Made by a program: the position numbers and the translations under genes
In this document: one piece after another, positions 3,732 to 64,000 of the stretch
How positions within the stretch are numbered: the stretch's first letter is position 1
Layout: each line of letters starts with the position of its first letter
From: Rhizophagus irregularis
Lineage: Eukaryota > Glomeromycota > Glomeromycetes > Glomerales > Glomeraceae
Length of the DNA: 64,000 bases
NCBI RefSeq assembly: GCF_026210795.1
Contig: NC_089444.1
Location: forward strand, 1,106,501 to 1,170,500
Reading direction: 5' to 3'
Notes under the pieces: model-generated
Database searches by the model: none
What the model was told of the DNA's origin: nothing
What the model saw: only the letters and a program-made list of their open reading frames with translations

Positions 3732-6591
3732 TTATCTAATAGTAAAGTAAAGAAAAATGCAGTAATGTTTACCTAGGCTAGTATTTGGAATTGTTTCATT
3801 ATAATTATCTTCATTATTAATTGTAATTTTTGAACTTAAATCATTATCATCAATATACTTTGGAAGATCTTTTGTAAAGAGATTAAGCAATCTGGATGTA
3901 TAAAAAGCTTGAGGGTGAGCAGATAATTGACGCTTTTTATTTGCTTTTCTATAACTTTCCGCTTCTAAAAATTGCTTATAAATTTCACGATCTTTTTGGA
4001 GAGGTAAATTCAAATTATAAATAGACTTTTCTATTTCAGTAACATTTGGTCTATTATCTGGATTTGAATCCCAACACCTTTTCATTAGGTTAATATAACA
4101 TTTTGGTATTTCTAATTCGTTTATTTCAGGTCTAACACTTTTACATATGTCTAATGCTAAATTTTCATCATGTGCACGATCGTTAAAAGGTTGTATCTCA
4201 GTTGCTACAGAATACATAATCATACTAAAGCTATATACATCTGCTGCTTGAGTATAAGGATTTCCTCTTAACAATTCAGGGGCTATATAAGGCATAACTC
4301 CATAAATATTTTTTTTATCTATATTACCAATTTCTCCACATAATCCCATATCTGAAATGTAGTTAGAAGAAAAACAACTAATAGCTTCAAACAATATATT
4401 TCCTGTGTGAAAATCACAATGAATCATCTGTTTTTGATGGATTCCTTTAAGACCATTAATAATATTATTTAACACTTTCAATTTTCTTGTCCAACAAAAG
4501 TATTTATAATTCTTGTTTATCCAATGATTAAATTTCCGCCTTCTGCATATTGAAGAACCATGATGTAATCTTTTGTATTTGGATTTTGTGATATTCCATA
4601 TTCTGAGAATTTTATCAAAATTATTTATTGAATATGCTTTAACCTAAGGAAATAAAAAATAAATATTATAAAATCATATTTAAATTAAATTAAATTTATA
4701 ACAATCTTCTTACCTCATTTAGAAATTCATCACTAATATTTTGAGAATTATTCAAACATTTTAATGCAACTTTTTTGTTAGATTCTCTTATCCACTCATT
4801 TTTAATTTTATAATAACTTAATGGACCATCCTTCCATATTGCAGAATATACTACAGCAAAACCACCTTTGTCTATTTTTTTAATATCATTAAAGTGATTA
4901 TAAGGTATCCATTCAAATATTATATCATGTATATTATTGATTTTCAATTGCATTTCTTGAATGAAAGCATCAACTTTTTTATTTCCACTAGTCCATTCTG
5001 TAAAATTATTTGTTAAATTATTTCTTTGACATTGTTTACACCATTCATAATTTATACTTGTATATTTTTCATCGCATTTTATACAATATCCTTTAAAATA
5101 TTCAATATGCAAAACCATAATATAATTTTTTGTAACTGGATCTTGGGATATTCCATATATTTTAAGGATATTATTTTCCCAAATCATTGAATAATTTTAG
5201 CCTATTAAAAATATAATATTAAATTATAGTAAATCATAACCAAAGTTTTTATTTAAATTAAATTTACGAAAGTTAATTTCGTACCTGATTTAGAAATTCA
5301 TCAATAAAATTCTGAGAATAATTTAAATATTTTAAAATAACTTTTTTATCTGATTCTTTAATCCATTCCTTTTTAACTTTATAATAATGTAATGGACCAC
5401 TTTTCCATTTTGCTGAATATAATGTAGTGAAATTATGTTTGCATATTTCTTTAATATTACTAAACTGATTGTATGGTATCCATTCAAATACTATATAATC
5501 AAATTCATAGTATTGGTTTTTCTCAATAAATTCATCAACTTTTATTTGCATTTTCTGAATTAAACTATCAATATTTTCATTTTCATTAGTCCAACTGGTA
5601 AAAGATTCTTTCAAGTAATTTATTTTACATAATTTGCACCAATTGTAACTTGATTTTGCACATTTGCTGCAAAATTCATACCTTATTTAAAAATTCATTA
5701 ATTAATTTTTGTGAATTATACAAACATTTTAGAACAACTTTTTTATTTGTCATTCTTTTATATTTCTTTTCATATGATATAGTGGACCATCCTTCCATAC
5801 TGCTAAAAATATTATAGCAAAATCACCTTTGCCCATTTCTTCAATTTCATTAAATTGATCGTAAGGTATCCATTCGAATACTATATCATTATAGTTATTA
5901 ATTTTTAATTGCATTTCTTGAACAAGATCATCAACTTTTTGATTTCCACTAGTCCAATTTATATAATTTTTTGTTAAATTATTTCTTTGACACACCAAAT
6001 ATTATGCATTCTACAAGTATTACAATATTTTAAAAAATATTGTTCTTCAAGGACAATAACGAAATTTTTCGTAGTTGGATTTTGAGATATTCCACATGTA
6101 AACAATTTTCCAGGAACCTATTAAGATTTATTATATTTAGAAAAAGGATTTAAATTAAATTTACAAAATTAATTTCACAATACCTCAGTGTATAATTTAT
6201 AAAAGATATTTTGAGAGTTATTAAAAAACCTTAAAGTAACCTTTTTATCTGATTTTCTTATATATTTTTTTTCGTTGTAATCGTAAAATAATGGACCATC
6301 TTTCCATATTGCAGAATATACTATTGAAGAATATACTGTAGCAAAATTACCTTTTCCCATTACTTCAATATTATTAAATTGATTATATGGTATCCATTCA
6401 AATACTATATCATCATGATTTTTAATTTTTATTTGCATTTCTTGAACTAAATTATTGATTTTTTTCATTCTTACTGGTTGGATCTTTAAAACGCTTTCTA
6501 AATGACATGGTTTGCACCATTTGTTTGATACTACAGTAAATTTTTTACCGCATTTTTCACAGCACGTATTATTATCACTTTGTGATAACAT
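3732..6591 (-). pseudogene. Multi-N-lobe TKL-like protein kinase, decayed
   Basis: Kinase-family gene read on the minus strand from an ATG at 6591. The first module (6591-6184) has a Cys4 zinc-ribbon-like motif (CEKC...WCKPC), the FEWIPYNQF block, a glycine loop (GKGNFATVYS) and a GT donor. Further N-lobe modules follow at about 6117-5691, 5690-5286 and 5201-4714, then the C-lobe exon (4643-3732). Lesions are visible. Module 2 has lost part of the WCxxC region and is frameshifted, and shifts again near 5750. Modules 2 and 3 are fused without the usual intron. Module 4 meets a stop just after its acceptor. The C-lobe exon has two compensating indels over beta4-beta5. The HRD motif is HCD. The activation-segment SDMGLCGE and APE (IAPELLRG) motifs remain. 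The C-terminus diverges from the usual ECLDCAI end. A shorter gene starting at the ATG at 5187 is possible, but I favour a pseudogene. Confidence 0.75.
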
Positions 6592-23778: not shown

Positions 23779-24336
23779 TTATATTGCACAGTCTAGACAT
23801 TCGGTGTTATTATCAACATATCTTAAATATTGAGTATTTTCATCAATGTATTCTGATAGATCTTTTGTATAAGGATTAAGTAATCGAGATGTATAAATAG
23901 CTTGAGGATGAATAGTTGATTTGCTATTATTATTTGTATTTCTATAATTTTCTGCCTCTTGAAATTGTCTTTTAATTTCATAATTATCTTGTGAACGATA
24001 TGAATTATAAAATGAAATAATAGTTGCTTCTATTTCAGCAGCATTCGGTCTATTGACAGGGTTTGAATTCCAACACTTTTCCATTAACTCAATATAACAT
24101 TTAGGTGCTTCCGGCTCATTTATTTCTGGTCTAATTCCTTTACATATATCTAATGCTAGATGATGATCATGTGCACAATTGGCGAAAGGTTGTCTCCCAG
24201 TTGCTACAAAATACATGATCATACTAAAACTATATACATCTGCTGCTGGAGTATAAGGATTACCTCTTAATACTTCAGGAGCTACATAAGGCATAGCTCC
24301 ATAAATGTTTGTTTCATCTATATCACCAATTTCTCG
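23779..24336 (-). pseudogene. 5'-truncated kinase C-lobe
   Basis: Minus-strand translation starts abruptly at the activation segment (EIGDIDETNIYG, then AMPYVAPEVLRGNPYT). It continues intact through the ADVYSFSMIMYF helix, CWNSNPVNRPN and the family C-terminal tail ending DNNTECLDCAI. Everything N-terminal of the SDMGLCGE motif is missing, with a sharp loss of similarity at about 24336 where the sequence reads into a non-kinase stretch with a stop. With no HRD, beta3 lysine or Gly loop it cannot be an active kinase. It marks the left end of the tandem array that extends to 44.8 kb. Confidence 0.85.
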
Positions 24337-26980: not shown

Positions 26981-29427
26981 TTATATTGCACAGTCTAAAC
27001 ATTCCGTACGATTGTTAATACATTGAGTATAATCATCAATATATTCAGGGAGATCCTTTGTAAAAGAGTTAAGTAGTCGAGATGTATAAATAGCTTGAGG
27101 ATGAAAGGTTGATTTGATGTTTCTGTTTGTACTTCTATATTTTTCTGCTTCTTTGAATTGTTCTTCAATTTGATCATTATCATCTCGTTTTATTTCATTT
27201 TTACAATATGAATTATGAAATAAAATAATGAATTTTTCTATTTCGGAAGCGTTCGGTCTATTAATAGGATTTGAATCCCAACATTTTTTCATTAAATCAA
27301 TATAACATTTAGGTGCTTCCAGCTCATTTATTTCAGGTCTAATTCCTTTACATATATCTATTACTAGAAGATGATCATGTGCACAATTGGAGAAAGGTTG
27401 CTTTTCAGTCGCTATAAAATACATGATCATACCAAAACTATATATATCTGCTGCTTGAGTATAGGTTTTTCCTCTTAATACTTCGGGAGCCACGTAAGGC
27501 ACAACTCCATAAATGTTTGTTTCATCTATATTACCAATTTCTCCACATAATCCCATATCGGAAATATAATTTGAAGTAAACAAATGTATCTCCTTAAATA
27601 ATATATTTCCTATATGAAAATCACGATGAACCATCTGTTTTTGATGAATTTCTTTGAGTCCACTAATAATGCTGCTTAACACTTTTAATTTAATTAACCA
27701 GTTAAAATATTTTGAATTATTATTCATCCAATAATTAAAATTTCTACCTTCTGCATACTGGAGAACCATAATGTAATTTTTTGTATCTGGATCTTGAGAT
27801 ATTCCATAAACTCTAAGAATTTTATCAGGATTATAAATTAAATATGCCTTAACCTAGAAAAAAAATTAATTTAATTATTTATAAATTATAAATAATTAAA
27901 TTATAAACTTTATACCTCATTTAAAAATCCATTGGTTATATTTTGTGAATTATTTAAACATTTTAAAGCAACTTTCTTATCTGAATCTCTTATCCACTCA
28001 TTTTTATCCTTATAATAACGAAATGGGCCATCCTTCCACATTGCTGAATATACTGTCGCAAAACCACCTTGATCTATTTTTTCAATATCACTAAACTGAT
28101 TATATGGTATCCATTCAAAAAATATATCCTTGTAAACATCAATTTTCAATAGCATTTCTCGAATAAAATTATCAATTTTTTCATTCCCACTAGTCCAGGT
28201 TATAAAATATTCTCTCTGATTATTTATTTTGCATAGTATATTTTCATCTGTATATTGTTCAACACAATTTACACAAAATTTTCTTAAATATTTGATATTG
28301 AGAATCAATATATAATCTTTTGTAACCGAATCTTGAGAAATTCCATATATCTTATTAATGCTGTATTCCTTTATTGAATATTTTATTAAAACCTATTAAA
28401 TGTAGGCAAAATGAGAAATATTATAAAGTATTTGAATAATTTTGTACAGAAATTTTATACCTCACTTAACACTCTCTTACTATAAAATTTTTCACCATCA
28501 AAATATTCTAAAACAACTATTTCATCCGAATTTCTTATATATTCTTTATTCTTACTATTCCAGTACAATGAGCCATTCTTCCATATTGCTGTAGCAAGAG
28601 TATCTTTTTTTATTTCTTTAATATAATTAATATCACTAAGCTGGTCGTATGGTATCCATTCAAGTATTTTATCCTCTGGTTCGTTAATTTTTAATTGCAT
28701 TGTGTAAATAAAATTATCAATTATTTCATTTACACTGGTCGAGTTTATATTATTATTCTCAAGATAATTTACTTTGCATGGTTTGCACCAATTCATATTT
28801 ATATCTGTATATTGTTCACCGCATTCTATGCAAAATTTTTTCAAATAATTATTATAGAGAATCAATAAATAATCTTTTGTAATTGGATCCTGAGAAATTC
28901 CATATATCTTACTAATTTTACTTTCTTTTATTGAATATTCATTTAAAACCTATTAAATATAAGCAAGTTGAGCAATATTAAAAGTGTTTTAATAATTTTG
29001 TATAAGAATTTCGTACCTTATTTAACAATCTTTCATTCTCAAATTCTTCACTATCAAAGTATTTTAAAGTAATTATTTCATCCGAATACCTTAAATATTC
29101 TTTATTCTTACTATTCCAATATAATGAGCCATCCTTCCATGTTGCTGTAGCAAGATTACCTTTTCTTATTTCTTTAATATCTTCAAATTGATTATAAGGT
29201 ATCCATTCAAATATTATGTCGGTCGGATGATCGATTTCTAATTGCATTTCGTGAATAAAATTATCAATTTTTTCATTCCCACTAGTCCAGTTTACTTTAA
29301 TTTTAAAACAATTTTTTCGACATAATTTACACCATTTATAGCGTGTACTTGGTTTATTTATATACATTACAGTAATTGCACCACATGTTATACATTTTTT
29401 AATCAATTTTTTAAACAAGCTTCGCAT
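26981..29427 (-). CDS. TKL-like kinase with three tandem N-lobe modules
   Basis: Predicted Ser/Thr or dual-specificity kinase. Four exons, all multiples of three and all introns phase 0 (62-68 nt): 29427-29017, 28949-28461, 28392-27916, 27853-26981; 749 aa. Module 1 (residues 1-137) and module 2 (138-300) each carry a Cys4 ribbon (CxxC...WCKxC) and an N-lobe whose glycine loop is eroded but whose beta3 lysine context (TLKYF in module 1) can still be aligned. Module 3 (301-459) has a loop DQGGFATVYSA, a VALKCL lysine and the FLNEV helix C. Residues 460-749 hold IYGISQDP-type beta4/beta5, HRDFHIGNIL (catalytic Asp/Asn), SDMGLCGE (DMG in place of DFG), VAPEVLRG, CWDSNPINRPN and the tail ECLDCAI. 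The start MRSLFKKL at 29427 is chosen because the paralogue at 40129 begins the same way; an upstream in-frame ATG exists at 29523. Substrate unknown. Confidence 0.85.
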
Positions 29428-30544: not shown

Positions 30545-30907
30545 CAATCTAAACTGAACATTCCGTACGATTATTAATACATTATTGAGTATAATCGTCA
30601 ATATAGTATCCTTTGTAAAGGAATTAAGTAGTCGAGATGTATAAGTAGCTTGAGGATGAATGGTTAATTTAATGTTTCTGTTTGTATTTCTATATCTTTC
30701 TGCTACTTGGAATTGTTTTTTAATTTGACATCATCTTGTATTACTTAGATGAATTATTAAAGGTAATTTTTTAATATTAAAACCTCTAACATTTAGTCGA
30801 ACAATTTGAACTATAAAATGAAATAATAAAATTTTCTATTTCGCTAGTGTTCAGTCTATTAATCGGATTTGAATCCCAACACTTTTTCATTAAGTCAAAC
30901 ACTGAGG

Positions 30908-31462
30908 TAGGACCCAGAAATATATATACAGGGGTAGGGTACACAGATGCGTCGCCATCATAGTGGAATTAGACGGAGTAAAGTTTTGATTTGTGTACAA
31001 TTTTAGAATTTTTCATCTATAGTTAGGTTATCAAGATTGGATTGCGTATTTTTATCAAAATTTTTATATGTAAAAAATTAGTTTGCGTATTTTTGGCCTA
31101 AATTTGGCTAATCTTATATATAAAATATTTTTATTGTACGTACTTATTTAATTAACCGCATTGTAATATTTAGTATTAATTGAAAGAAATTTCTAATGGT
31201 TAAAAGTGAAATTTTAGAAAAATATTATTGAAAAAATGGTAAATTCTATTTTTTCACATTAGTATTTGGTTTTATAAATAATAGAGAAGCCATGATAAAA
31301 TAATTAATAACTTAATGTCTGAAATTTTATTTGCGTATTTTTGCAGGATTTTTATATCAGGTGTCAATTATGCGTACTACTCATATAAAAATTCTCTGCG
31401 TACAGATCATAGTAAAAAAATTTTTCGCCACCTGACCCCTATATATATATTTCTGGGTCCTA
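30908..31462. mobile_element. 555-bp non-autonomous element in kinase relic
   Basis: Imperfect inverted ends begin TAGGACCCAGAAATATATA and run on into a shared agggg. The target duplication is ctgagg (30902-30907 and 31463-31468). Removing the element with one copy of the duplication rejoins the kinase C-lobe relic (…attaagtcaa / gtgtttccgactcattattt…). No transposase is encoded. A 6-bp duplication does not settle the superfamily. Confidence 0.75.
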
Positions 31463-33616
31463 CTGAGGTGTTTCCGACTCATTATTTCAGGTCTAGTTCC
31501 TTTACATACTATGTAATATATATATACTAGGTGATGTGCACAATTATAGAAAGGTTGCAGTTGCTACAAATACATAAGCATACTAAATCTGCTGCTTGGT
31601 TACTATAAAGCTTTTTTTTTTTTTTTTTACAATGACAAACGCATATTTATTGATTAAAGAGGGCCTATGTTAGTATGTCGCGCACTAGTACAAACATAGG
31701 CAGTAAAATAACCTCAATATACCCATTGAAATTGAGCAGTCTAAAACTACTCGCTCTCTCCATGTCAAGGCCACTACCGTCCCCGATCAACACCTTTAAC
31801 CCCTACACCAACCTATATACAAGCTATCTACATACATGGGTATATCTCGTTATTCTACACTAAAAAAAGAAACCTAAACTATTTTTTGTTTTGACCCTTT
31901 TTCTTCTTTTTACGGCCCATCCTGCTTCCAGGTTTCCCGGCCCAGGGTTTTTTTTCTTTTTTAACTTCTCTAAAGCCTTCTCCAGTCTCTTCGTATTCTG
32001 TGTCACTTCACGTTCCCTGTTTTTTCTTTATACGCTTCTTGTCTTCTTCATCGTCCGATGATGATGAAAAACCATTACCTGGACCTATTAAAAATGGGTT
32101 ACGGTTTGAACAAGTAAATGGATACTTGTTGTTTTGTGATGGTAATTGTTTAGTACAATCAGCGTTAACTTTCAGTTGTTGTATTCATGTAATTCTATCG
32201 GAGACACAGTTTTTTCTCCATTTGTAGAACGCTCTGACTTCTTCCCCTTTTTGTCGCCGACGCATTTTTCGAATAAAGAAATCCTAGCTTTACTCAGCAG
32301 GTGGTTTTCATCGTAGACTTTTATCTTGTTGTCGTCTTCAACTGGTAACGTCACTTTATCGTATTCGACCATTATCTCTTTTCGGTACTCCTCAATCACT
32401 TTAACCACGTTATCTGGAGAAGTATAATCTTTTAGCGGAGGCGATATTGTTTCTACTTGCTTTTCACTCAGCAGGTTTTTCCTAGTATATTTATTAACGG
32501 TATCGACTACCTCTTCCGTGGTTATATCTTTGATAATTGTTGGTGACGTTACGGTTGTTATTATCGGCTCTTCTTTTTTATTATTCGGGACCGTGCTGAT
32601 TAGCGCCCTCGGAAGAACCTCTTTTGTGGACTTCTTCGATGCACCATCTTGACGTTTTCTGTGAATAATCCAGGCTTGATCTGTGATTCCGCCGTCCAGA
32701 GTGATTGCATTGTTCAACTGATCTTCATCTTTAAAATACGCCAGAAAACTGTCTTATTTCCAAAGCGAGCAATTTTTCCATACTCAAAAGTATAATTTTT
32801 CCTCGCTATATCTTGGTAGTAATTCGTACATATTACTTTGTAAGCTTTCCACTTGCATTTTTCTTTTATGTCTTTAACAGTCCTATCTCCTTTGAACCAA
32901 TGAACGTCAATGACTTTTTTATTTTTATCATTGCTTCCTATTAGCACTTTCTCTTTCCATGCTCCATTTAAGAAGGATGTCTCATAATCTTCCAATAATG
33001 AAATGTCCGCTCTTACTGATTGGTATTTGTAGTGTTTTTTGATTCTAATTCTGTGTACCTTGCCTAATTGTTTTATGGCATTGACCACCTCTTCCTCACT
33101 ATATCTTGATGGTATGTCATAAAATAAAATATCACGTGATGTTGTACTCTGAGCCTGGTATTTTTTTGGATCGATATCTGATCGTCATTTGTTGGGAGCA
33201 CAATTTCCTTAACTGATTTTTTTTCACGTTTTTTATTTTTCAGCATTTTTCTTTGTTCTGAGATGTTTTTGATTGGTGTTTTTAACTCGCATTCTATTTC
33301 TTTATTTAGTTGTGTATCTTGTGTCGAAGTTTTTTGCTGCACCTGCCGCAGCCATGAACGAAGGCGAATATTCTGGTTTCCAATTCTTTTAACATCGTTA
33401 TCATAGTCTCTATATGCGAACCTCAGTATATTCCTGGCTATTATTTCTATAGTTTCACCTTTTATGCAGGTAATATTACTTATTTCCACTAGTAACCTAT
33501 GTGTTTTTAGCGTCCTGAAAAATATTTTGTCAAAAATATCCTCTATCTTGTCTTTATGCCTAGAGTTGGCTTTTGTAAAATTTTTTCCAACAAAGGACTT
33601 GACTTCTTTTAAGATA

Positions 33617-35487: not shown

Positions 35488-35769
35488 CGAAAAGTAGATA
35501 AAAGTATTTCCTTAAATAATATATTTCCTATATGAAATCAGATGAACCAACTGTTTTTGATGAATTGCTTTAAGACCATTATAATGTTACTTAACACTTT
35601 TAATTTAATTAACCAACTAAAATATTTAGAAGTATTATTCAACCAATAACTAAAATTTCGACCTTCCGCATACTATTGGAGAACCATAATGTAATTTTTG
35701 TATCCGGATCTTGAGACATTTCATAAACTCTAAGAATTTTATCAGGATCATTACAATTAAAAATTCCTA

Positions 35770-37642: not shown

Positions 37643-40129
37643 TTATATTGCACAGTCTAAACATTCCGTACGATTGTTAATACATTGAGTATAATCATCA
37701 ATATATTCAGGAAGATCCTTTGTAAAGGAGTTGAGTAGTCGAGATGTATAAATAGCTTGAGGATGAAAGGTTGATTTGATGATTCTGTTTGTATTTCTAT
37801 ATTTTTCTGCTTCTTTGAATTGTTCTTCAATTTCATCATTATCATCTCGTTTTTTTCTACAATATGAATTATGAAATGAAATAATGAATTTTTCTATTTC
37901 AGAAGCGTTCGGTCTATTAACAGGATTTGAATCCCAACATTTTTTCATTAAATCAATATAACATTTAGGTGCTTCCAGCTCATTTATTTCAGGTCTAATT
38001 CCTTTACATATATCTATTACTAGAAGATGATCATGTGCACAATGGGAGAAAGGTTGCTTTTCAGTCGCTACAAAATACATGATCATACCAAAACTATATA
38101 TATCTGCTGCTTGAGTATAAGGTTTTCCTCTTAATATTTCAGGAGCCACGTAAGGCATAACTCCATAAATGTTTGTTTCATCTATATTACCAATTTCTCC
38201 ACATAATCCCATATCAGAAATATAATTTGAAGTAAACAAATGTATCTCCTTAAATAATATATTTCCTATATGAAAATCACGATGAACCATCTGTTTTTGA
38301 TGAATTTCTTTGAGTCCACTAATAATGCTGCTTAACACTTTTAATTTAATTAACCAGTTAAAATATTTTGAATTATGATTCATCCAATAATTAAAATTTC
38401 TACCTTCTGCATACTGGAGAACCATAATGTAATTTTTTGTATCCGGATCTTGAGATATTCCATAAACTCTAAGAATTTTATCAGGATTATAAATTAAATA
38501 TGCCGTAACCTAAAAAAAAAATTAATTTAATTATTTATAAATTATAAATAAATTAAATTACAAATTTCATACCTCATTTAAAAATTCATTGGTTATATTT
38601 TGTGAATTATTTAAACATTTTAAAGCAACTTTTTTATCTGAATCTCTTGTCCAACAACTCATATAACGTAATGGGCCATCCTTCCATATTGCTGAATATA
38701 CTGTAGCAAAACCGCCTTGATCTATTTTTTCAATATCACTAAACTGATTGTATGATATCCATTCAAATAATATATCCTTGTAAACATCAATTTTCAATAG
38801 CACTTCTCGAATAAAATTATCAATTTTTCCATTCCCACTAATCCAGTTTATAAAATATTTTTTCTGATGTTTTATTTTGCATAGCATAGTTTTACCTGTA
38901 CATTGTTCAACACAATTTACACAATATTTTCTCAAATATTTATTATTGAGAACCAATAAATAATCTTTTGTAATTGGATTTTGAGAAATCCCATATATCT
39001 TTTTATTGTCATATGATGTTTTTATTGAATATTCTTCTAAAACCTATTAATCATTAGCAAAATGAGCAATATTAAAAATATTTGAATAATTTTGTATAGA
39101 AATTCATACCTTAATTAATGCAAGTTCTTTAGAATCAAAATATTCTAAAACGACTACTTCATCAGAATTTTTTACGTATTCTTTATACACACTATTCCAA
39201 TATAATGGGCCATCCTTCCATATTGCTGTAGCAAGAGTACCTTTTCCTATTTCTTTAATATAATTAAACCGGTTGTAAGGTATCCATTCAAATATTATAT
39301 CAGCCGGATGATCGATTTTTAATTGCATTTCGTGAATAATATTATTGATTTTATCATCTTCACTGGACGAGTTTATATGATTATTCTTAAGATAATTTAT
39401 GTGACATGGTTTGCACCATTCATCATATTTGTTTGTATATCTTTCACCGCATTCTATACAAATTGTCGTCAAATAATCATCGAGAACTAATAAATAATCT
39501 TTTGTAATTGGATCTTGAGAAACCCCATAGTATATCATTCTAATGCTATATTCCTTTATTGTATATTCTTTTAATACCTATTAAACATAAACAAATGATT
39601 AAAAAAGTATTAAATAATTAAATAATTCTGTATAGAAATTTCGTACCTTATTTAAAAATTTATTACTAAATTCTTTACTATCAAATTCTTCACTATCAAA
39701 TTCTTTACTATCGAATACTTCACTATCAAATACTTCATTATCAAGACATTTTAAAACAACTATTCTTTTGTTCCAATATCGATCTCTTTTATATTTTTTA
39801 TACACACTATCCCAATATAATGGGCCATCCTTCCATTTTGCTGTAGAAAAATTACCTTTTCTTATTATTTTAATATTATCAAACTGATTATAAGGTATCA
39901 ATTCAAATATTTCATCAGTCCGATACTTAATTTTTAATTGCATTGCGTGAATTAAATTATCAATTTTATCATTTCCACTAGTCCAGTCTATTTTATTTTT
40001 AAAACATTTTTTTCGACATGATTTACACCATTTATAGTAGCGTGTACTTGGTTTATTTATATACATTGCAGTAATTGCACCACATGTTATACATTTTTTT
40101 ATATTCAGTTTTTTAAACAAGCTTCGCAT
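37643..40129 (-). CDS. TKL-like kinase with three tandem N-lobe modules (paralogue)
   Basis: Close paralogue of the gene at 26981-29427 with identical architecture. Four exons: 40129-39647, 39577-39110, 39043-38573, 38509-37643; all phase 0; 762 aa. Module 1 (1-161) has CITCG...WCKSC, a degenerate loop (RKGNFSTAKW) and an expanded acidic DSKEF/DSEEF repeat before helix C. Module 2 (162-317) has CIECG...WCKPC, loop GKGTLATA and VVLEYF, so the beta3 lysine is lost. Module 3 (318-474) has DQGGFATVYSA and VALKCL, but its second zinc-ribbon Cys pair is lost. The catalytic half (475-762) carries HRDFHIGNIL, SDMGLCGE, VAPEILRG, CWDSNPVNRPN and tail ECLDCAI. The reading frame is intact, so the gene is likely functional or very recently duplicated. 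Confidence 0.85.
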
Positions 40130-41115: not shown

Positions 41116-41118
<3 letters not shown>

Positions 41119-44100
41119 TTGTCTATATATTTCACAGTCAAAACATTCCGATTTAACAGATTTATCTAAACATTGAATATTATCATCTAAAAATTCTGAA
41201 AGATTTTCAAGATTTTCAAGATTTTTTGTAAAAGGATTAATTAAACGAGATGTAAAAACTGCTTCAATATGTTCAATATGAATAGTTGGATTATTATTTT
41301 TATTAGAATTTCTATATTTTTCCGCTTCTTTGAATTGTTCTTCAATTTTATCATTATCATCTCGTTTTATTTCATTTCTACAATATGAATTATAAAATGA
41401 TATAATTAATTTTTCTATTTCAGAAGCGTTCGGTCTATTAATAGGATTTGAATCCCAACATTTTTTCATTAAATCAATATAACATTTAGGTGCTTCCGGC
41501 TCATCTATTTCAGGTCTATTTCCTCTGCATATATCTAATACTAGAAGATGATCATGTGCACAATGGGAGAAAGGTTGTTTTTCAGTCGCTATAAAATACA
41601 TGATCATACCAAAACTATATATATCTGCTGCTTGAGTATAAGGTTTTCCTCTTAATACTTCAGGAGCCATATAAGGCATAACTCCATAAATACATGCTTC
41701 ATCTATATTATCAATTTCACCACATAATCCCATATCAGAAATATAATTTGAAGTGAATAAATGTAAGTCCTTAAATAATATATTTCCTATATGAAAATCA
41801 CGATGGACCATCTGTTTTTTATGAATTTCTTTAAGACCATTAATAATATTACTTAAAACTTTTAATTTAATTAACCAATTAAAATATTTTGAATTATGAT
41901 TCATCCAATAAGTAAAATTTCTACCTTCCGCATATTGAAGGACCATAATATAATCTTTTGTAAATGGATTTTGAGATATTCCAAATATTTTAAGAATTTT
42001 ATCAAAACTATTAATTGAATATGCTTTAACCTAAAGGTAAAAAAAAATGGTTAAGTATTTTTTTTTTTTAAAAAAAAAATTGAATTTATGTTTTCATACC
42101 TCATTTAAAAATTCGTCGGTTATATTTTGTGAATTATCTAAACATTTTAAAGCAACTTTTTTATTTGAATCTCTTATCCATTCATTTTTATCTTTATAAT
42201 AATTTAATGGACCATCCTTCCATATAGCTGAATGTACTGTAGCAAAACCACCTCTACCAATTTTTTCAATATTATTAAATTGATCAAATGGTATCCATTC
42301 AAATATTATATCAGATGGATCATGAATTTTTAATTGCATTTCTTGAATTAAATTATCAACTTTTTCATTTCCACTTGTCCAATTTATAAAATTATTTTTA
42401 AAATAATCTATTTGACATGGTCTACACCATCTATATGATATATCAGTATAAATTTTTTCACATTTTATACAATATATTTCAAAATATTTTTTATCTAGGA
42501 TCATAATATAATCTTTTGTGATAGGATTTTTAGATACTCCATATATATTAAGTTTTAATCCTTTTAACGAATATTCTTTTAAAATCTAATAATAAAAATA
42601 CGATCAAAAATTAGTAAACGTAAACGCGTATACGCGTATACGCGTATTATAAAATAAGATCAAATCACATATGTATAATAAAATAAACACACATACCTCA
42701 TTTAGATTATCGATAATATTTTGTGAATTACCAAGATATTTTAAAGCGACTTTTTCATTTGAATTTCTTGCAAAATCTTGATTCTTAAAATTATGATATA
42801 AAGGACCATTCTTCCATATAGCTGAATATAATTTATTAGAACCATATTTTCCTAATTCTTCAATATAATCAAATTGACTGTATGGTACCCATTCAAATAA
42901 ATTATTAATTTTTAATTGTATTTCTTGAATGAAATAATCAATCTTTTCATTTCCACTAGTCCAACTTATAAAATTTTTTTTAAAACAATTGATATGACAT
43001 GGTTTACACCATTTATAAATTATATTTGTATATAATTTATCACATATTGCACAATATTTTACAAAATATTTATCATTAAGAACCATAATATAATCTTTTG
43101 TAATTGGATTTTGAGATATTCCATATATATTAAGATTAAATCTCTTTATTGAATATTCTTTTAAGATCTAAAAAAAAAAGAATTTTATTGGTTAATGTAT
43201 TTAATATTTAATAGAACAGCCAATAAAAAAAAATTTTATGTTCATTACCTTATTTAAACATTTTTTGGAGACATTTCGTGAATTATTTAAATATTTCAAA
43301 GTAACAGATTTATCAGATTCTCTTATATACCTCTTTTTATTATAATGTAAAGGACCATCCTTCCATATTGCAGTATTAAGATAACCTTTTCTTATTTCAA
43401 TAATATTATTAAATTGATCATATGGTATCCATTCAAATATTATATCCTGTGGATCATTAATTTTCAATTGCATTTTTTGAACCAAATCATCAATTCTTTC
43501 GTCCCCATTATTTGTAAAATATTTTTTTAAATCATTTAATTGACATGGTTTACACCATTCATAATATGTATTTGTATACATTTTATCACATTTCACGCAA
43601 TATTTTACAAAATATTCACCATCAAGAACCATAAAATAATCTTTTGTAATGGGATTCTGAGTTAATCCATATAATAAAACATTATTTTCAAGTCTCTTTA
43701 TCGAAAAATCCTTTAAAACCTAATAAATCACGAAACAAAAAATTATTATATTATAAAAAGAGTTTTAACTTTTAAATAGAATATGTAGAATTTGATATAA
43801 AAAACAACTTTTGTTATATTAGTCCAAGAAAAATTCATACCTTATCCAAGTAATCATGAGAAATATTTTGTGAATTACTTATATATTTTAAAGCGACTTT
43901 CTTATATGAATCCCTTACATATAATTCACCCATTTCTTTAATTTCTTTATCAATCATCTCATCGTTAAGATTATAATATAAAGGACCATCATTCCATATT
44001 GCTGAATATGTTTTAATAAAATTACTTTGATTAATATCTTTAAATTGATTATATGGTATCCATTCAAATAATATATGAAGTGAACTATCAACTTTTAATT

Positions 44101-44813
44101 GCATATTTTGTATAAAATTATCAATTATTTCGTTACCACTAGTCCAATCTATAAAATAATCTATTTGACATGTGTTACACCATTCATGTAAAATATTTGT
44201 ATATATTTCTCCACATTTCTCACAATATTTATTTTCAATTACAATAATATATTCTTTTGTGTTTGGATCTTGAGATATTCCATATACTTTAATTTTATCG
44301 CTAAATTTCCTTATTGAAAATTCTTTTAAAGCCTATTAAATAAATATATAAAGTTATAAAGAAACTTTTTTTTTAAAAAAAAATTAATAAAAAAAATATA
44401 TATATTAAAAAATTTACCTTTTTTAAAAAATTTTCATTACCAAGATATTTTAAAGCAACCAATTCATTAGAATTTCTTAAAAATTCTTTATACTTATTAT
44501 TCCAATATAAAGGACCATCCAACCAAATAGCCGAATATAAATGATTTTCATTATTACTATTTATTTTTTCAATATTATTAAATTGATTAAAATTTATCCA
44601 TTCAAATATTATATCATCTTTTAAATTAAGTATTTTTAATTGCATTTTTTTTATTAAATTATCAATTATTTCATTTTCATTTTCACTTTTATAATTTGTA
44701 AAATTTTTATAATAATTTATTTGACATGATTTACACCATTTTTTATATGTATTTGTATGTATTACATTACAAATTACACATCTGTTTGTTAATATTTTAA
44801 AAAAATTTCTCAT
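41116..44813 (-). CDS. TKL-like kinase with five tandem N-lobe/zinc-ribbon modules
   Basis: Six exons with an uninterrupted frame of 1076 aa, every exon a multiple of three and every intron phase 0: 44813-44418, 44332-43841, 43719-43249, 43167-42697, 42585-42100, 42030-41116. Five successive modules (residues 1-132, 133-296, 297-453, 454-610, 611-772) each have a Cys4 ribbon (for example CEKCG...WCNTC, CVKCD...WCKPC), the FEWIPYNQF block and an N-lobe. Glycine loops of modules 1-4 are degenerate (INSNNENHLYSA, INQSNFIKTYSA, IRKGYLNTA, LGKYGSNKLYSA), and module 5 is canonical (IGRGGFATVHSA). The beta3 lysine (VALK/VTLK) is present in all five. The single catalytic half (773-1076) has HRDFHIGNIL, SDMGLCGE, MAPEVLRG and CWDSNPINRPN. 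The tail differs from its neighbours (ending SECFDCEIYRQ). A multi-N-lobe kinase is the best description; the role of the extra modules is unknown. Confidence 0.88.
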
Positions 44814-47611: not shown

Positions 47612-48967
47612 TTATAATAAAGCCAAAATATATTCTTCATCTTTTGATAATCTAATAATGTTATCGTTTGAATAATCGTTTGAATCGTTTGAATCGTTTG
47701 AATCAACATTAACATGAACATTATCATCATCATCATTATTATTATTTTCATTATTGATATCATAATTAATATCATCATCATTATCTGATACAATTGTTGT
47801 ATTGGTAAAACTAGTATTAACTGCTGTTACAGTTTGAGTCTTCTTTTCATCATCATCATTACTATTATTATTACTATCATCATTATTATTATTATTACTT
47901 TCATCATCATTATTATTATTCTTCTTGATATCAATTTTTTTTTCATCATTATTATTTAAAAATAATTTAACTCTATTAAGACCATTAATCCAAATTTTTT
48001 TCATAGCAGGATCAAAACAAAATGCTAATGCATTAAATATACCTTGAGAACTTGTACCAATATTAGCCAACATTTGAAAAGTGAAATGATTCTGTTTTGT
48101 AGAAAAAAATAATAAATTTGAAGCAATATTAAAAAGAAAAGTTATTATAGGTACTATAGGATAAACTACTATACGTTTTACAGCTCTATTAACCATTAAT
48201 TGACGTTTACAATTATTATTCTTAATAAAATTATTATTAGAATTTGTATTATTCATTTCTTTCATAAATTTAGTTGCTTTATGTAAACGATTAATTATAG
48301 TAAAAACAGCATAAGTACAATATAATACTGATAATATTATCCAACCATGTAAAGTAGTCCATTGCCATATAACGGATTGTGTAGTATTTCCACGTTTATA
48401 CCAACAACTAACTTCTTCTTTATCATAACCAAGAGCATCAAATAAAACCGGTACAATACTTAAAGTAAAAGCTAAAATTATAGGAACTATAATATAAAAT
48501 TTTTCAAAATGTCTTGTACTTAGATAATTATAAACAAAAATTATTTGAAGATTAAAAGCGATAGCGACGGAATAAAAGCAACCTAATAAAGCAGTAAATA
48601 CAAATCCCCAAGGTGATACATGACACACCCAATTACCAGGAGGATTTGAATTAACTGTCATAATCTTTAAAAGAGAAAAAAAGGGGAACATTAATGTAAT
48701 GTAATTTGCTTAAGAAAGCGATTATATAACAACATAACGCGTCTTTACCTGAAAAGCTGCAAAGAACATATCAACAGTGGAAACGTAAGATTGTAAACGT
48801 AATGAAACACGGTTTGATACTTTTTTATGTTTTTTTCGCAAATATATAACCATACAAACAACAAGGAATGCGGAAAACATTGATATAGAATTCAAAATTT
48901 CGCTTGTATTTTTGAATACTAAGCCTTCGTAAGCAGCTTTAGATTCTGTGAATTGATCTTTAACCAT
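47612..48967 (-). CDS. Seven-helix receptor of the cAMP-receptor/Git3-like GPCR class
   Basis: Two exons, 48967-48749 and 48664-47612, joined in frame at the FFAAFQ/IMTVNS junction; 423 aa. Hydrophobic segments in order are ILNSISMFSAFLVVCMVIYL, SYVSTVDMFFAAFQ, WGFVFTALLGCFYSVAIAF, FYIIVPIILAFTLSIVPVLF, LHGWIILSVLYCTYAVFTII, IVVYPIVPIITFLFNIASNL and SSQGIFNALAFCFDPAMKKI. One cysteine sits at the top of helix 3 (WVCHVSPWG) and one in extracellular loop 2 (EVSCWYKRG), as in the conserved disulfide. The C-terminal tail of about 110 aa is extremely Asn/Asp-rich. This layout fits plasma-membrane receptors of the Dictyostelium cAR / fungal Git3-like group. Ligand and G protein are unknown. The first ATG at 48967 gives a short extracellular N-terminus without an obvious signal peptide. 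Confidence 0.85.
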
Positions 48968-62363: not shown

Positions 62364-64000
62364 TTATATTTTACAGTCTAAACATTCTGCTGTATTATTA
62401 TCAAGATCCTCTGTAAAAGGATTAAGTAGTCGAGATGTATATATGGCTTGGGGATGAATAGGTGGTTTTCCGTTCTTATTAATACTTCTATATTTTTCTG
62501 ATTCTTGAAATTGCTTTTTAATTTCATTATCATCTTGTGAACGATATGAATTATAAAATGAAATAATAGTTTCTTCTATTTCAGCAACATTCGGTCTATT
62601 GACCGGATTTGAATCCCAACACTTTTTCATCAAATCAATATAAAATCCAGGTGCTTCTTTCTCATTTATTTCAGGTCTAATTCCTTTACATATATCTAAT
62701 ACTAAAAGAGAATCATGTACAAAATCGGAGAAAGGTTGTCTTTCAATCGCTGTAAAATACATGATCATACCAAAACTATATATATCTGCTGCTTGAGTAT
62801 AAGGTTTTCCTCTTAATATTTCGGGAGCTAAATAAGGCATAACTCCATAAATATTTGTTTCGTCTATATTACCAATTTCTCCACACAATCCCATATCTGA
62901 AATATAATTTGAAGTGAATAAATGTATTTCTTTAAATAATATATTTCCTATATGAAAATCACGATGAACCATCTGTTTTTGATGAATTTCTTTAAGGCCA
63001 TTAATAATATTACTTAACACTTTTAATTTAATTAACCAGCTAAAATATTTAGAATTATTATTCATCCAATAATTAAAATTTCTACCTTCCGCATATTGAA
63101 GAACCATAATATAATCTTTTGTGAGTGGATTTTGAGATATTCCGTATACTCCTATAATCTGACTATCAAAATTATTAACTGAATATGCTTTAACCTAAAA
63201 TATATATACTGTATATATAAATATTATTACATATCATAAATGTTTTGATGATTAAATTGAATAAATTACCTCATTTAAAAATTCATTGTTGATATTTTGT
63301 GAATTATTTAAACACTTTAACGCAACTTTCTTATCTGAACTTCTTATCCACTCATTTTTATCCTTATAATAACGTAATGGGCCATTCTTCCATGTTGCAG
63401 AATATACTGTAGCAAAACCACCTTGCCCGATTTTTTCAATATCAATAAACTGATTATATGGTATCCATTCAAATAAAATATCTCCGTAAAGATTAATTTT
63501 TGATTGCATTTCTTGAATTAAGTTGTCAATTTTTTCATTCCCACTGATCCAGTTTGTAAAAATTTTTCTATATCCAACAATTTCACCATATTTTACATAA
63601 CACTCTTTAAAATATTCTTGAGAATATTCATTATATAGAATTAGAATATAATCTTCTGTATTTGGTTTTCGAGATATCCCATATATTTTATCTTTAGACA
63701 AAATATCTTTTTTTATTGAATAATTTTTAGCCTATCGATGAAAAAAAAAATAAATCTAATTATAATTAAAAAAGAAGAATTTATATTTATAAAGAAATTT
63801 CATACCTCATTTAAAAATTCATTAATCACATTTTGTGAGCAATTAAAATATTTCAGAGTAATCGCCTTATCTGATTCTCTTAAATATTTCTTTTCTTTCG
63901 AATTATAACATAATGGACCATCCTTCCATATTGCTGAGTATACGGTGGCGAACCAACCTTTACATATTTCCTCAATATCGCAAAATTGATTATATGGGAT
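62364..64000 (-). CDS. TKL-like kinase, 3' part (5' end beyond the window)
   Basis: Three exons are visible, all phase 0: 64000-63806 (partial), 63731-63270 and 63194-62364. The partial module ends an N-lobe (CKGWFATVYSAIWKDGPL, ITLKYF, INEFLNE). The next module (63731-63270) has lost the zinc-ribbon cysteine pairs but keeps a canonical loop (IGQGGFATVYSA), VALKCL and NEFLNEV. The catalytic half has HRDFHIGNIL, SDMGLCGE, LAPEILRG, CWDSNPVNRPN and a tail ending AECLDCKI that is shorter than in the array genes. So this gene has at least two N-lobe modules; further modules may lie to the right. The reading frame is intact throughout. Confidence 0.85.

Follow-up and report, generated by a model that had tools for sequence, protein, structure and literature searches.

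The five-N-lobe kinase gene and its neighbours

The stretch of Rhizophagus irregularis DNA analysed here (the window; 64,000 nucleotides, 26.2% GC) carries on its minus strand a kinase gene that runs from 44813 to 41116 and whose six exons encode a product of 1076 aa, with the stop codon ending at 41116. Enumeration of GT donors and AG acceptors around the five frame breaks reproduced exactly the coordinates, the number of exons and the product length given in a preliminary description of this DNA, to which we add the strand. The agreement of splice sites and frames that had been claimed there is also borne out, as all five introns (44417-44333, 43840-43720, 43248-43168, 42696-42586 and 42099-42031, thus within 42031..44417) are of the GT..AG type and in phase 0. 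The sole longer combination enumerated uses an alternative donor in the fourth intron and yields 1078 aa. Exon 1 (44418..44813) provides the start codon together with the Zn ribbon and beta1-beta3 of module 1, in which the loop is degenerate and the Lys is retained. Each of the next four exons joins alphaC-beta4-beta5 of one module to the Zn ribbon and beta1-beta3 of the following one, namely modules 1 and 2 in exon 2 (43841..44332), modules 2 and 3 in exon 3 (43249..43719), modules 3 and 4 in exon 4 (42697..43167) and modules 4 and 5 in exon 5 (42100..42585). Exon 6 (41116..42030) contains alphaC-beta4-beta5 of module 5, the sole C-lobe, a C-terminal tail and the stop; all six exons lie on the minus strand. 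The inner exons are permuted units, and every N-lobe of the gene is split by an intron. The exons are open over 132-304 codons, a length for which chance is excluded, since one stop per about 12 codons is expected at this GC content. We rejected the possibility that the upstream modules are separate short genes, which the preliminary description had named as the observation that would overturn its reading, because each of the four inner junctions falls within an open exon that encodes both the beta5 strand of one module and the Zn ribbon of its successor.

Two Zn-ribbon Cys pairs and an N-lobe segment can be aligned across all five modules, and the modules differ in the catalytic residues that they retain. 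Modules 1-3 are without the Gly-rich loop and have no aligned alphaC Glu; module 4 has lost the loop and retains both the alphaC Glu and the Lys. Module 5 has an intact GRGGF loop, the VALK Lys and the alphaC Glu (LNE), and the C-lobe motifs are likewise intact (HRDFHIGN, SDMG and APE, here APEV), so that the catalytic set of Gly loop, VAIK Lys, alphaC Glu, HRD, D-x-G and APE is complete in module 5 plus the C-lobe. A Pfam scan of the product places the kinase family PF07714 (PK_Tyr_Ser-Thr) solely at residues 716-979, which correspond to module 5 and the C-lobe (E 6e-36), and the best PDB sequence match is RIPK1 (E 1.2e-20), followed by roco4 and TAK1. Judged by these matches, the product is a eukaryotic protein kinase of TKL/RIPK-like type with all usual catalytic residues, and module 5 together with the C-lobe is its predicted active unit. 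In addition, the NOB1-type Zn ribbon PF08772 is matched by two stretches of the whole product at 29.5 bits (cut-off 24.9) and by module 4 alone at 13.3 bits, which is below the cut-off.

Five genes of this module-array build, one of them broken, were identified in or overlapping the window from the ORF list and tblastn with parts of the gene, and all the further ones lie on the same strand as the five-N-lobe gene. Paralogue D (37643..40129, minus strand), its neighbour, and paralogue C (26981..29427, minus strand) each consist of three modules and a C-lobe. They are 95% identical in the C-lobe and 62-81% identical in the modules and differ between these parts in dS as well; this difference suggests that gene conversion took place or that the C-lobe exon was exchanged. 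Paralogue A (3732..6591, minus strand) has four modules and a C-lobe in which HCD replaces HRD; its frames are broken by frameshifts, and it is a probable pseudogene and a sign of birth and death in this family of kinase arrays. Paralogue F (62364..64000, minus strand), with four modules and a C-lobe, runs beyond the end of the window and comprises 879 aa overall. The search with the gene's parts also located C-lobe pieces with no modules nearby at 23782-24333, 30611-31587 and 35493-35696, which are probable remnants of further family members. Directly outside the window lies array 5, which has nine modules, a joined frame that is open over 1611 aa and HHD in place of HRD. Apart from these genes, a 359-aa ORF at 47612-48691 (minus strand) matches GPR_Gpa2_C with 21.0 bits, a borderline score that just equals the cut-off, and is a possible candidate for a fungal glucose-receptor-like GPCR.

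A gene family across the genome

The five-N-lobe architecture is that of a gene family and not of one gene. Three junction-peptide queries against the genome (146,748,485 bases in 32 contigs) revealed at least 306 separate tandem junctions, which form at least 134 clusters distributed over 24 of the 32 contigs. Junction starts no more than 250 bp apart were merged before counting, and a few of the matches contain a stop. The first query, a 67-residue peptide that spans the junction of modules 3 and 4, yielded 85 clusters from the best 150 of 1929 candidate places, and for two further queries, derived from an array on contig 7 and one on contig 6, the best 150 of 2745 and the best 150 of 2761 candidates were scored, respectively. 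The preliminary description had considered an assembly artefact of one exon unlikely, and arrays of the same build on many contigs show that the architecture is no artefact of one locus.

From the 85 clusters of the first query, we took the 20 regions that come first by contig number, on contigs 1 to 7, and examined them with HMMs built from the window genes. In all 20, module arrays of 3-11 modules are followed on their own strand by C-lobe sequence, of which region L031 (array 25) contains only a fragment. Twelve modules are in view in a further region, L033, and the C-lobe HMM found no C-lobe between modules in the arrays examined. Regions L034 and L035, whose C-lobes lie away from junction matches, were considered as single-module controls and rejected, as each has at least three modules; the modules seen whole in these two regions are without a Zn ribbon, and the N-lobe linker follows closely behind the preceding hinge. 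In region L024 (array 17, contig 3), modules 5-7 share an identical loop sequence, a sign of recent duplication within the array.

The splice pattern of the five-N-lobe gene recurs across the family. A phase-0 GT-AG pair is present at 136 of 147 module boundaries, a count that accepts any such pair within the search range and comes with no shuffled control; 94 of these 136 donors read GGTATG or GGTATA, and eight further modules had no following piece. Eleven of 28 arrays had a pattern simple enough to be joined automatically, and ten of the 11 are open, the longest over 2010 aa and 11 modules in a region that cuts its 5' end. Array 9 has three stops in the joined frame.

Several relatives on contig 1 depart from the intact catalytic unit. 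Arrays 7, 8 and 10 have lost the loop of the last module, and their C-lobes have DMK, NMG and NME, respectively, at the D-x-G motif; as these loci are related, we count them as one case of joint loss. Array 9, which lies beside them, has lost the Asp of D-x-G (SME) with its loop intact, and in array 17 on contig 3 the loop is likewise retained and the Asp of HRD lost (HHN), so that an intact last loop and an intact C-lobe are not strictly coupled. In arrays 7 and 8 (regions L013 and L014), the open frame of the C-lobe runs on to encode MLKL_N and a second kinase, and Sel1 repeats are matched in a further frame behind array 7. Genome-wide, MLKL_N (PF22215) is present at 71 places, and the Pfam scan of the five-N-lobe gene in the window gave no MLKL_N match.

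Last and upstream modules

The residue counts rest on 28 arrays with at least two module pieces, of which 26 have C-lobe sequence and supply 25 full last and 115 full upstream modules; these counts exclude partial modules as well as the two arrays that have no C-lobe, and include array 25, whose true last module may be missing. The Gly-rich loop, xGG[FY], is present in 21 of the 25 last modules and in 3 of the 115 upstream ones (Fisher 5e-18), and 20,000 permutations within arrays gave at most 13 loops in last position compared with the 21 observed. Since this motif was chosen after inspection of the alignment, three later loci were used as a check, in which loops listed by hand were found in 3/3 last and 0/15 upstream modules; the last module of L033 was matched in three pieces only, and the 5' sides of L034 and L035 are truncated. 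An alphaC Glu is aligned in 23/25 last versus 59/115 upstream modules, with gaps scored as absent, and the corresponding counts are 24/25 versus 98/115 for the beta3 Lys and 25/25 versus 109/115 for the beta2 Trp. Taken together, these alignments suggest that the catalytic parts are mostly retained by the last copy alone. The four Zn cysteines, in contrast, are complete in 18/25 last versus 106/115 upstream modules (Fisher 0.01), and this better retention upstream would be consistent with a ribbon that functions in the array and not in catalysis, notwithstanding the modules of L034 and L035 that have no ribbon.

We further compared N-lobe segments of both kinds by profile methods. The terminal set comprised 19 segments of about 100 residues each from 23 that were spliced (three failed trimming and one was dropped, its array having no C-lobe in view), and the upstream set comprised 30 segments, at most two per array, out of 89 eligible among 102 spliced. 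All 19 terminal segments match PK_Tyr_Ser-Thr on their own, with positions 5-79 of the profile covered in the example displayed; for the 30 upstream segments, there was no kinase model among the 25 Pfam families listed out of 27. Against the PDB, the profile of the terminal segments matched kinases weakly (best E 0.008), and that of the upstream segments gave 11 matches, none of them a kinase. The two profiles nevertheless align with each other over 97 columns (hhalign, E 1.9e-63), which together with the missing kinase-profile match indicates that the upstream modules derive from N-lobes and lie outside the kinase consensus. Modules 1-4 of the window gene are therefore to be regarded as N-lobes by their sequence homology to module 5 and like modules, and not by Pfam. 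The earlier reading of five successive N-lobes before one C-lobe is supported, as the sequence contains five N-lobe-derived modules and a single C-lobe; it is refined in that modules 1-4 are degenerate pseudo-N-lobes, which have lost the loop in 4/4 cases, and not the equals of module 5.

Modules are inherited by position. When the loop and alphaC columns are removed before tree building, 12 changes account for the label 'last' (mean of 200 shuffles 23.3, minimum 19) and 11 for the label 'first' (mean 21.5, minimum 19), and with the same columns removed the nearest neighbour of 22 of the 25 last modules is the last module of another array. Some pairs of arrays correspond one-to-one in module order, as seen for 19/23 modules between contigs 4 and 6, for 14/15 between two arrays on contig 2 and for 7/9 in a further pair, and arrays 13, 21 and 22 have similar last modules and different array lengths. 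These relationships suggest that module roles were fixed before much of the family spread.

Pooled dN/dS (NG86) amounts to 0.42 in upstream modules (49 pairs), 0.52 in last modules (9 pairs) and 0.55 in C-lobes (11 pairs). The 11 array pairs behind these values were picked by hand and are not independent, and within them modules were paired by highest identity. The ratio of third to second position differences is 1.56, 1.57 and 1.35 for the three classes (27, 10 and 10 pairs). Aligned introns differ by 0.09 per site (24 pairs), which is less than the exons do and perhaps reflects gapped alignment of A/T-rich introns, and the modules of genes C and D gave dN/dS values of 1.36, 0.75 and 1.17, two of the three above 1. 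Weighing the pooled values and position ratios against the low intron divergence and the C/D values, we consider that constraint on the upstream modules is present but modest and appears no more relaxed than on the catalytic part; strong constraint would find no support in the introns.

Possible roles of the array

We think that the five-N-lobe gene probably encodes one RIPK/TKL-like kinase, formed by module 5 and the C-lobe, together with a tandem array of four repurposed, loop-less pseudo-N-lobes that are not alternative catalytic halves. Each upstream module would combine a Zn ribbon and a linker with a segment that derives from an N-lobe and has lost the Gly-rich ATP loop, and the last module and the C-lobe would make up the catalytic unit. 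The array may grow and shrink via unequal exchange of the symmetric phase-0 exon unit and probably serves recognition or regulation. It could act as a platform for recognition or oligomerisation that controls the kinase, perhaps through docking of the array on the kinase or through contact between N-lobes.

The phase-0 introns, 5/5 in this gene and with a GT-AG pair at 136 of 147 module boundaries across arrays, also accord with a different use of the exons, in which they are skipped or shuffled during splicing and give rise to kinases with varied module number or chimaeric N-lobes, down to a single module. The frame would survive such skipping because the introns are in phase 0, and each skip would fuse beta1-3 of one module with alphaC-beta5 of another. 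However, duplication of a unit also yields phase symmetry, a mere cassette has no need of the conserved module order seen in the array pairs (19/23, 14/15), and the boundary count has the permissive search range mentioned above; we regard this explanation as rather unlikely. Somewhat less likely still, the upstream modules could be unselected leftovers of unequal crossing-over that are tolerated while they stay in frame. The frameshifts of paralogue A, the loss of upstream catalytic residues, the low intron divergence between paired arrays and the C/D values would all agree with such debris, but the upstream modules retain the Zn cysteines, the beta2 Trp and the beta3 Lys in the great majority of cases (106, 109 and 98 of 115), ten of 11 joined arrays are open up to 2010 aa despite the low GC content, and neither the pooled upstream dN/dS of 0.42 nor the position ratio, which is equal upstream and in last modules, points to absent selection.

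Competition of several N-lobes for the single C-lobe, which would produce kinase states that differ in activity, is in our opinion improbable. Homology between upstream and terminal modules does span the whole N-lobe, including the hinge side at beta4-beta5, and module 4 keeps both Lys and Glu; with the loop in just 3/115 upstream modules, however, the exchanged states would be mostly dead, which leaves inhibitory docking only. We give hardly any credence to an artefact of assembly or gene models. Low GC content and repeats do make gene models hard, and array 17 has three modules with an identical loop, but many contigs carry the architecture, the modules diverge widely, and the junctions of the five-N-lobe gene lie inside open exons. 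Moreover, PMC10234402 describes the R. irregularis assembly that this genome resembles as based on nanopore and Hi-C data with uniform coverage.

Beyond the preferred reading of one kinase with a repurposed array, we tentatively propose that half a kinase domain serves in this family as a repeat unit. Arrays of 3 to 12 loop-less Zn ribbon/pseudo-N-lobe modules, made by in-frame exchange of exon units and each coupled to one kinase or to a pseudokinase-MLKL_N-kinase chain, might constitute a fast-diversifying, receptor-like repertoire that senses partners, parasites or non-self. This broader proposal is the less secure of the two, and the LRR and TPR arrays of immune receptors would be its analogue. 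If the arrays recognise something, this land-plant symbiont would possess in them a candidate system for sensing.

R. irregularis has expanded kinase families, with 2,533 members according to PMC10234402, and a high-copy kinase class is reported in PMC8647823; the N-lobe array family presumably belongs to this expansion. In the portions considered here, the two papers treat the expanded kinases by copy number, methylation and gene age and not as module arrays, and the arrays would give an anatomy to a part of the expansion so far reported there as copy number. The preliminary description knew of no described architecture with five N-lobes, and our literature search, most of which lay outside subscription journals, accords with it in having found no paper on tandem or repeated kinase N-lobes.

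Protein kinases are regarded as a two-lobe fold in which both halves occur together. At scores of places in this genome, one half is multiplied and the other is single in the arrays examined, with the extra halves mostly loop-less, so that these arrays represent a natural test of what an N-lobe is capable of without catalysis. Similar to kinases of the RIPK/TKL type (PF07714), module 5 and the C-lobe span a whole kinase domain with Lys, HRD, D-x-G and APE; unlike them, the window gene has four extra N-lobe-derived modules before the C-lobe and D-M-G in place of D-F-G. Two contig 1 relatives (arrays 7 and 8) share with MLKL the MLKL_N domain, which is followed by a second kinase, and their own array C-lobe has an altered D-x-G. 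In plant TKPs and in the JH2-JH1 pair of JAK, a working kinase and a degenerate kinase-derived neighbour are combined in one chain as paired whole kinase domains. The five-N-lobe gene has the same combination of a working kinase with degenerate kinase-derived neighbours; it has one C-lobe rather than two or more whole kinase domains per chain, a second kinase being present in arrays 7 and 8, and here it is the N-lobe alone that has been multiplied.
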